From Thermococcus sp. CX2 (lineage in GTDB: Archaea; Methanobacteriota_B; Thermococci; Thermococcales; Thermococcaceae), in assembly GCF_012027555.1 (NCBI RefSeq), contig NZ_SNUQ01000006.1, forward strand, positions 1-64,000: DNA of 64,000 nucleotides. Reading direction: 5' to 3'. The notes below the pieces were generated by a model. The model did no database searches. It was not told the origin of the DNA and was given only the letters and a program-made list of their open reading frames with translations. Shown in pieces: positions 61,458 through 64,000 of this stretch. Position numbers and translations under genes: made by a program. Each line of letters opens with the position of its first letter. The first letter of the stretch is position 1.

Positions 61458-62057
61458 ATGTTCCTATTTACCAAGAACTTCGAGCTCCAGAGAGAGAAGG
61501 CAATGGCGGGCCTTAGGGAAGCGCTGGAAGAGGGCAAGGTGGATGAGGACATAATCCCGCTCTTGGAGAAGATAAACTCGCTTGAGAACTACTTCACAAC
61601 GTCCTCCTGCTCCGGAAGGATTTCGGTAATGGAGATGCCAGAATTTGGAGACAAGGTCAACGCCGTCTGGCTCGGCAAGTGGCACAGGGAAGTTGAGCTC
61701 GGAGAAGTCCTTGAAGCTATCAAAAAGCACTCCAGCGGTCAGCTCTGGTTCATGGTGAGGAGCCCCATCCTCCACGTTTCAGCTAGAACTTTGGAGGACG
61801 CTGTAAAGCTCCTCAACTTGGCTATAAGCCTCGGTTTCAAGTACTCCAACATAAAGAGCGTCAGCCACAAGAAGCTGGTCGTTGAGATACGCTCCACTGA
61901 GAGAATGGACGTGCCTCTGGGAGAAGACGGGGAGCTCTGGGTGGACGAGGATTACATTGCGAGAATCGTTGGAATTGCCAACGATCAGTTGAGGCGCTTC
62001 AAGGGGAAGCTGAAGAGACTGGAAGAAGAGATTGATGCTGAAAGATACAAAAATTAA
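61458..62057 (+). CDS. taw3: Wyosine-derivative methyltransferase Taw3 (TYW3 family)
   Basis: Methylates the wyosine precursor at G37 of tRNA-Phe. About 199 residues with the family's YFTTSSCSGRISVME (about 48-60), LWFMVRSPILHVSART (about 95) and SHKKLVVEIRSTERMDVPLG (in part, about 135). Complete. Gap of six bases from the helicase stop suggests one transcript. Its end overlaps the stop of the convergent small membrane gene by four bases. Confidence 0.92.
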   Translation: MFLFTKNFELQREKAMAGLREALEEGKVDEDIIPLLEKINSLENYFTTSSCSGRISVMEMPEFGDKVNAVWLGKWHREVELGEVLEAIKKHSSGQLWFMVRSPILHVSARTLEDAVKLLNLAISLGFKYSNIKSVSHKKLVVEIRSTERMDVPLGEDGELWVDEDYIARIVGIANDQLRRFKGKLKRLEEEIDAERYKN

Positions 62058-62299
62058 AGCCACTTTTTAACGCACAAAAATCCAACAAGCACTCCTATAA
62101 CTGTTCCGGCACTGGTTATTATCCAAGAACAAGAAGTATTGGCTATAAGTTTCATAGCCACGATAACAATCAACCCGCCTATCACCACTCCAATTGCTGT
62201 TCGAAGTACATCGTTCACTTTCGAGTATACAACACCTCCACTAAAAACTAAAATAAAAGAGACAAAAAATGCCAACGCGAGCCCCACAATGCAATCCAT
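62054..62299 (-). CDS. Small membrane protein, candidate immunity or accessory factor of the halocin-like protein
   Basis: An 81-residue protein with three hydrophobic helices: IVGLALAFFVSFILVFSGGVV, AIGVVIGGLIVIVAMKLIA in part, and IITSAGTVIGVLVGFLCV. No family recognised. It starts 12 bases after the halocin-like gene with GGGGGTGGG before its ATG, so the two are cotranscribed. Small hydrophobic neighbours of bacteriocin genes are often immunity proteins; here that is inference from position. Confidence 0.65.
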   Translation of the reverse strand: MDCIVGLALAFFVSFILVFSGGVVYSKVNDVLRTAIGVVIGGLIVIVAMKLIANTSCSWIITSAGTVIGVLVGFLCVKKWL

Positions 62300-62311
62300 A
62301 GACCCACCCCC

Positions 62312-63268
62312 TTAACAATATCTACTGCAAACTGCATCAGCTCCGAGCATACATCCTCCACCAATCAAAACGCCTTGGACGTAATCACAAGTGGGGTAAC
62401 ATATCGCAAAGCACAATGGGGCACCCAATCCAAAGGGCAGACAGACTTCGGCACATGCCACATCACAACCCACATAACCTACTCCAATAGAGCAAAGAAC
62501 CCAGACTAATGCTTTGCAGACGCTACATTTACTAATGTCCATGCTTACAGCTAACCCCATTGCCTTCTGCTGGTTGTATTCTGGCAGTTTGAGTCTTATC
62601 AAGTGCGAGAGGTGCCTCAGCTCGTAGGCAGTCCTGCCCCAAATCCAGTTCGTTTCATCGCCCCTGCGGAGCTTCATGAGGATCTTGTTCAAAGCCCAGT
62701 AGTACTCCGAAAGGGTCAGATTATCCCTAATGACTATAGTGTCACCTACAGGCACAACTCTATCCTCATCATTCGGTGCAATGTTCATCCCAGTGAGGAA
62801 AATCCTGTACTCTCCAGTATAGGGGTCAGCGAGAATTTTTGTAATTAGTGTAAAGTTGTACTGGCTCCTTTCCGCTTTATAAACAAGAGCATACATTGTG
62901 TAATTGAAAGTCTCGTTGTAGAGACTAATTCCAAGGAAAAGCAACTGCTCGTGCTTTTTCGTCATGTTGTAAAGGGTAACCACTGAAACGTTGAAGTTTG
63001 CAGTCAAGTTTGAGGCACTGCAGGAGCTTGAGTTGTGGCATGCACAGGAGGCATTAGTCAAGTTCGCGAAGTCAATGGTCTTATTCACCCACGTGGCGTT
63101 CATCTGAAGCCTACCATTATCGTCATACCAGGCAACCACAGTCCTCCGGAATGTTACGCTGGAGTTGTTGGCGGTCATTGCCGTGGCCTGTGGTGTAGCA
63201 ATCAACTGCAAACTCAACAGCATAGCAAGCAAGAGCAGAGCACCAACCTTCCGGACCCAACCGTCCAT
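62312..63268 (-). CDS. Secreted halocin C8-like precursor protein
   Basis: Signal peptide (VGALLLLAMLLSLQLIATPQATA), then about 215 residues of beta-rich, heavily sequon-bearing sequence (more than ten N-x-S/T sites). The last 75 residues are Cys-rich and hydrophobic with 12 Cys: CSVC, VLCS, GCDVACAEVC, PLCFAICYPTC, GGGC, and CSRYC at the end. Size, Cys spacing and the Gly/Ala-rich helices match the halocin C8-like domain, an antimicrobial archaeocin released from the C-terminus of a longer precursor. In halocin C8 the N-terminal part is the immunity protein. ATG 63268 follows GGGGGTGTG; the TATA box is at 63311-63319. Confidence 0.8.
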   Translation of the reverse strand: MDGWVRKVGALLLLAMLLSLQLIATPQATAMTANNSSVTFRRTVVAWYDDNGRLQMNATWVNKTIDFANLTNASCACHNSSSCSASNLTANFNVSVVTLYNMTKKHEQLLFLGISLYNETFNYTMYALVYKAERSQYNFTLITKILADPYTGEYRIFLTGMNIAPNDEDRVVPVGDTIVIRDNLTLSEYYWALNKILMKLRRGDETNWIWGRTAYELRHLSHLIRLKLPEYNQQKAMGLAVSMDISKCSVCKALVWVLCSIGVGYVGCDVACAEVCLPFGLGAPLCFAICYPTCDYVQGVLIGGGCMLGADAVCSRYC

Positions 63269-63310
63269 AGACACACCCCCAGAGATCATCGCTACATGTA
63301 CGTTAAAATC

Positions 63311-63319
63311 CTTAAAAGC
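63311..63319 (-). promoter_or_regulatory. TATA box of the halocin-like operon
   Basis: Minus-strand CTTTTAAGG, giving a predicted start near 63290 and a leader of about 20 bases containing GGGGGTGTG before ATG 63268. The remaining gap to 63500 is AT-rich with a T-run (63345-63360) and no supportable gene. Confidence 0.5.
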
Positions 63320-63499
63320 TTTTCCAATTACAAGTTTAAATTAGTTCCGTTTTTTTTTTTCGTAGGATTTTCAATTTCTAACCGTAGCATCAAGAAGAGA
63401 ACAAGACGAAAGAAGGCAAAGTAAGAGAGTGGACAGGAGAGCACAATTGATCATACTGACATTAGACAACTTCCCACTTAAAACATGCTTCACATGCCT

Positions 63500-64000
63500 T
63501 CAGACATCGAGCAGGAGCTTCACGTACTCAAGGACGCTTCCCCGAGCCTTCTTTATCTTCACGTGCTCGACGAGGTCCCTGAACTGACCTTCGGCCAGAC
63601 CGTCGGCTATCATCGCGCTCCCCTGGGCGGCTTCCTTAGCCTGCCCTCAAGACCCCTCTGCTTGACGACGGGAAGTCCAAAGCGCTCCTCGAAGAGGTCT
63701 TCCACGTCCTTTCTGAGCTCGTCTATGCGCATCAGCCTGCCGGAGAGGATTATCTCCTTAGCGTTGCCCACAACGGCCAGCTCGCTCGCAACGGCCTTTA
63801 AGAAGCCGTCCTTCATGGCCTCCCAAGCCTTTGCGAACGGTTCTTCGTCGAGCCTCTTGGCAAACTCCTCCGGCGGGAGTATCTCGTTGGCGGCTATTAC
63901 CGTAGCTCCGCCCCAGAAGAGGTGCCACTTCTTGACCTGTCCCATGAGGTAGGTAGCTGCCGATGCCGTCAACGATTTTTCCCCAGCCAAAAGTCGGGAG
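63500..64000 (-). pseudogene. DUF1464 (kinase-like) gene, partial at window edge and frameshifted
   Basis: The C-terminal part of an archaeal DUF1464 protein, an acetate/butyrate-kinase-like ASKHA fold of unknown function. It runs off the right edge (SRLLAGEKS continues past 64000). The frame LTASAATYLMG to VKQRGLEGR reaches a premature stop at 63610. The family-like tail, KEAAQGSAMIADGLAEGQF to GSVLEYVKLLLDV, continues in another frame to TGA at 63500-63502. One base missing near 63638-63645 explains this. It may be a true frameshift or a sequence error. Confidence 0.75.

Follow-up and report, generated by a model that had tools for sequence, protein, structure and literature searches.

Near one end of a 64,000-nucleotide stretch of DNA from Thermococcus sp. 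CX2 (hereafter the window; contig NZ_SNUQ01000006.1), a gene for a predicted secreted precursor lies beside a gene for a small membrane protein. A preliminary description, made from the sequence, took the pair for a halocin C8-like archaeocin locus with a membrane partner. To our knowledge, few archaeocins have been characterised outside the haloarchaea and Sulfolobales. The locus raises the question of whether it encodes a homologue of halocin C8 that stands alone or one member of a larger system, and what role the membrane protein would have.

Architecture of the precursor

The precursor gene lies on the reverse strand (62312..63289), as defined by its open reading frame and by comparison with relatives. 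It encodes 325 residues from the ATG at 63289 or 318 residues from the ATG at 63268, and the latter is the likelier start because a GGGGGTG Shine-Dalgarno sequence precedes it at the right distance and the starts of the relatives match. The N-terminus reads as a Sec-type signal peptide (MDGWVRKVGALLLLAMLLSLQLIATPQATA; 63179..63268, reverse strand) with an AxA end; there is no twin arginine within the N-terminal 37 residues. Cleavage would occur at the AxA end, and A37 is nearly invariant across relatives. Upstream of the gene is a BRE/TATA-like element (GGAAAAGCTTTTAAGG; 63310..63325, reverse strand), a putative promoter judging by its letters. The next gene upstream (63610-63999) ends in ...RLRKPPRGAR, in a different frame from its counterpart in another genome, G029 (...RAKEAAQGSAIIADGLAGG...), which suggests that the window copy has undergone a frameshift or contains a sequencing error.

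The signal peptide is followed by a prodomain (62537..63178, reverse strand) that is conserved among relatives and contains one nearly invariant Cys. Including the signal, it measures about 250 residues, and the mature prodomain about 214. The preliminary description had remarked on its many N-glycosylation sequons; we counted 14 N-x-S/T sequons, compared with 3.2 ± 1.6 in shuffled sequences (not one of 2000 reached 14). The C-terminal domain, which we call the tip, has none. The Pfam scan returned no match for the prodomain. A Pfam/NCBIfam match to the Borrelia P13 porin (15.7 bits) falls below the cut-off and was rejected as a chance match in a hydrophobic segment. The prodomain closes with the junction G245-x5-D251 (62537..62557, reverse strand). 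In the alignment of relatives, D251 is present in 100% of those with a readable junction and G245 in 98%, and the tips diverge directly after D251; the junction is likely both a processing and a recombination boundary. The AlphaFold2 model of the precursor, for which two sequences served as input, has a mean pLDDT of 38.5, and disulfide pairing is not readable from it.

The tip belongs to the halocin C8 domain family

The tip (62315..62536, reverse strand; residues 252-325) was defined by profile search and sibling comparison and assigned to type T1a. It comprises 74 residues with 12 Cys, essentially the hydrophobic 75-residue, 12-Cys domain described earlier. The NCBIfam profile of the halocin C8 domain, TIGR04449, has a curated cut-off of 24 bits. 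The isolated tip scores 25.6 bits (E 1.8e-5), above the cut-off, and 24.2 bits in the genome search; the whole precursor scores only 21 bits, below it. Profile positions 1-69 of 69 align with residues 255-325, the extreme C-terminus. Six sibling tips, which sit on the same prodomain in other Thermococcaceae, score 23.1, 24.2, 37.5, 45.9, 46.5 and 49.3 bits, the value of 23.1 belonging to the closest orthologue of the window tip. The equally Cys-rich tip types T4, T5, T6 and T8 of the same precursor family have no TIGR04449 match and thus serve as a control for composition. The window tip is a member of the halocin C8 domain family with a borderline score of its own, and this likeness, proposed at the outset, is borne out by the profile. 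Halocin C8 itself has ten Cys. The 12 Cys singled out in the preliminary description fit the family, since six of the seven sibling tips on this prodomain have 12 Cys in register; the seventh, at locus L060, has ten.

One prodomain carries at least ten tip types

Of 94 Thermococcaceae genomes, 29 contain relatives of the precursor, and many of these have several. Relatives were absent from same-phylum genomes outside the Thermococcaceae, from plasmids and from viral contigs, and searches of PDB, PADLOC and PHROGs found none. As the 47 precursor genes or large pieces that we extracted show, D251 is followed by one of ten sequence-unrelated Cys-rich tip types, T1 (halocin C8-like) to T10. The types were set by shuffle-based Z scores, which replaced a BLAST clustering that, lacking a composition correction, had pooled 33 Cys-rich tips. 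Between genes that differ in their tips, the median identity is 69% for the prodomain and 20% (maximum 32%) for the tip. The window's own genome holds a second precursor copy, with a T4 tip, at L002/L074 (G000:C1, about 690500-701000); it is accompanied by a 127-residue partner and, further downstream, an orphan partner of the T7 type. By these comparisons, the precursor family is polymorphic, comprising at least ten tip types, and the window locus represents one of its alleles.

When tip types are mapped onto a tree built from 39 prodomains, 16 changes are required, with nine as the minimum. T8 tips that are 99% identical sit on prodomains that are 52.5% identical, and a pair of prodomains 91% identical bears unrelated T4 and T1e tips. 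The window's T1a tip recurs in the genome G059 with 71 of 74 residues identical (78% nucleotide identity), on a distant prodomain and in the cbf5/methyltransferase slot of the chromosome as opposed to the taw3 slot of the window. Eleven loci occupy the taw3 slot and thirteen the cbf5/methyltransferase slot, with many tip types at each. As read from these alignments, tips move between prodomains.

TIGR04449 also matches three proteins that have an unrelated prodomain of about 185 residues and are encoded beside mtnP. This second prodomain family is found in about a dozen genomes, where it likewise bears several tips and the membrane genes go with the tip. One of its halocin C8-like tips shares 37 of 83 residues with the T1b tip (Z 14.8), and the partner of that tip shares 33 of 123 with the T1b partner (Z 7.2), the prodomains being unrelated (Z -0.4). 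Two carriers thus bear a halocin C8-like tip accompanied by its predicted antidote. The prodomains of the second family (L089-L103) contain the motif CPCCSGNVSLP, and the loci often include a conserved lipoprotein-like gene of about 170 residues (YWxSIxSFTAHETIKIGNQTFESYVNFTKPDKI).

The membrane partner follows the tip type

The partner gene (62054..62299, reverse strand) starts 12 bp past the precursor stop and has a GGGGGTG of its own ahead of it; the spacing suggests that the two genes are co-transcribed. Its 81-residue product is modelled with helices at 2-24, 29-54 and 59-80 (mean pLDDT 69), in agreement with the three-helix protein first described. Good scores for this protein were obtained in three genomes only: the window's, G059 (47% identity) and G029 (83%).

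Throughout the family, the first gene downstream of the tip encodes a small or medium-sized multi-helix membrane protein, the family of which tracks the tip type. Partners are homologous (Z > 8) in 70 of 104 same-type pairs and in 0 of 757 different-type pairs, where related genomes contribute loci that do not count as independent; in 5000 permutations of the labels, no value as high as 70 was reached, and the maximum was 24. The same-type exceptions include the T1 sub-types T1a-T1e, which have different partners, T2, whose two partners are not clearly homologous to each other, and T6 loci with reordered partner paralogues. The partner families were defined from tip-adjacent genes, so that the concordance is partly by construction for the single-member types T10, T1b and T1e; what counts as informative is the homology seen among independent loci, together with the lack of mixed pairs and the orphans. 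Among the loci surveyed, no tip lies ahead of a partner of another type.

An intact partner of the same type accompanies each of the 32 intact precursors, and 15 of 18 broken precursors keep theirs, where some of the breaks may stem from faulty assembly of draft genomes. A further 26 near full-length partners are orphans with no tip, and three lie beside tip remnants. A partner that is kept alone or beside a broken precursor, and is never missing from an intact one, is the signature of a toxin with its immunity protein. The specific pairing of tip and partner is strongly supported by these comparisons, and the partner is probably the cognate immunity protein.

At three loci (L051 in G059, L039 in G072 and L067 in G006), the precursor is broken by a single in-frame TAG next to an intact partner, and in two of them the TAG falls within the signal peptide. 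At L059 (G073:C1:1438500-1448000), one precursor is surrounded by an array of additional partner genes, which belong to several types and have no tips, in the manner of an immunity island.

A clean natural deletion is found in G029 (L079/L082; G029:C1:982727-982966 and flanks). This genome has no precursor, and its syntenic slot agrees with the window on either flank. The missing segment corresponds to window positions 62328-63214, about 886 bp of the precursor. What is left is the promoter region, with the BRE/TATA-like element largely kept, and the start of the signal peptide, directly ahead of the partner, whose frame is open and intact (83% identical to that of the window; dN 0.095, dS 0.25). 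The loss of the precursor together with the retention of the partner matches the prediction for an immunity gene.

A probable polymorphic archaeocin system and its alternatives

At the level of sequence, the family has a secretion signal and modular tips, its membrane partners are tip-specific, its cassettes are exchanged and its partners are retained. The Thermococcaceae thus very probably possess a polymorphic archaeocin system with membrane immunity proteins, of which the locus is one allele. In such a system, the precursor would leave the cell through the Sec route with an N-glycosylated prodomain, as the signal peptide and sequons suggest. Proteolysis near the invariant D251 may then free the disulfide-rich, hydrophobic tip. 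Proteolytic maturation has been reported for halocins H4 and C8 (PMC12893001). At the locus, we looked for a dedicated protease or exporter and found none, and no pre-toxin domain was found. The freed tip would insert into or permeabilise the membranes of competitors, which is consistent with its hydrophobicity, its kinship to halocin C8 and the fact that all partners are membrane proteins. The 81-residue integral membrane protein is predicted to shield the producer and, in keeping with the specific pairing seen in comparative genomics, would act on this tip type alone. As the sequences show, cassettes of tip and partner are exchanged at the junction and so pass from one prodomain or chromosomal site to another, and this may give rise to strain-specific discrimination of self from non-self.

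The partner could instead be an accessory of transport or processing for a stand-alone halocin C8 homologue that has its immunity domain inside the precursor, as HalI in proC8. The TIGR04449 match of the tip agrees with this, as does the finding that the N-terminal part of the halocin C8 precursor is an immunity protein (PMC11509114, PMC8628083). Here, however, prodomains up to 91% identical bear unrelated tips, so that the prodomain can hardly hold a tip-specific antidote; it is the downstream gene that co-varies with the tip and persists alone, and the precursor has no twin-arginine signal. We consider a stand-alone homologue highly improbable. In the preliminary description, the domain and the membrane partner stand, the former by the profile and the latter as part of the system, but that reading is incomplete, as the locus is not an isolated homologue. 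The same modularity might serve hypervariable surface recognition or adhesion, with the tips as ligands or antigens, the membrane proteins as receptors or anchors, and no toxicity. The VARTIG modules likewise swap, come with membrane partners and include orphan genes, and no toxin domain was found in them (PMC8416519), and the density of sequons suggests a surface-exposed prodomain. Yet antimicrobial activity has been demonstrated for members of the family to which one tip type belongs, and the Pfam scan gave no Ig family even at E 10. The loss of precursors with retention of partners, and the count of 0 intact precursors without a partner, fit immunity better than a receptor deprived of its ligand. 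We therefore regard a role in recognition or adhesion as improbable.

The polymorphic archaeocin reading can be extended to a previously undescribed class, in which a glycosylated, secreted carrier delivers at least ten interchangeable kinds of disulfide-rich, membrane-active tips cut at D251, each kind having its dedicated membrane antidote, and cassettes that move between carriers and chromosomal slots mediate strain-level killing and recognition of self and non-self in hyperthermophiles; we give this fuller proposal an even chance. On the main reading, heat-loving archaea appear to run a mix-and-match system of antimicrobial peptides and immunity proteins like the polymorphic toxins of bacteria. 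The findings also suggest a modular system in which the halocin C8 domain serves as one warhead. The other tips, about nine unrelated families of Cys-rich peptides that are probably heat-stable, become candidate archaeal antimicrobials. With a predicted antidote for each tip type and genetically tractable species in the Thermococcaceae, the specificity of toxin and immunity is directly testable.

Comparison with known systems

Polymorphic toxin systems and the halocin C8 family are already known, and the locus proteins are not claimed as undescribed. Makarova et al. 2019 is cited as predicting archaeal polymorphic toxins and reportedly also expanded the halocin C8 family. The literature that we searched, which did not extend to that study, holds no description of a carrier-and-tip system in Thermococcales. 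The VARTIG modules of the same order of archaea likewise encode a hypervariable, modular secreted protein followed by membrane proteins (PMC8416519), but the present family differs from them in having no Ig domain match, in its short Cys-rich tips and in one tip type that is a known antimicrobial family.

Polymorphic toxin systems (CDI/Rhs/LXG and archaeal PTS) resemble the family in the conserved N-terminal part, the variable C-terminal effector and the downstream cognate immunity gene, as well as in orphan immunity genes, effector remnants, cassette exchange and effector domains that occur on different delivery modules. In contrast to theirs, the effectors here are short, disulfide-rich and probably membrane-active peptides, not nucleases, with neither a dedicated secretion apparatus nor a pre-toxin domain, and among the genomes searched they are confined to the Thermococcaceae. 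The CDI ionophore toxins are polymorphic membrane-targeting effectors with highly diverse cognate immunity proteins (PMC11630599). They are bacterial helical bundles delivered by CdiA and constitute a functional analogue only, with no sequence relation detected or expected.

The closest likeness in the tip itself is to halocin C8 and TIGR04449, where a hydrophobic, Cys-rich domain of about 75 residues also ends a secreted precursor. The window tip has 12 Cys, compared with ten in halocin C8. The halocin C8 precursor is reported to include the immunity protein within itself and to take the Tat route (PMC11509114), whereas the precursor described here has a Sec-like signal, its prodomain is common to many tips, and the predicted immunity is a separate membrane protein in place of an N-terminal HalI.
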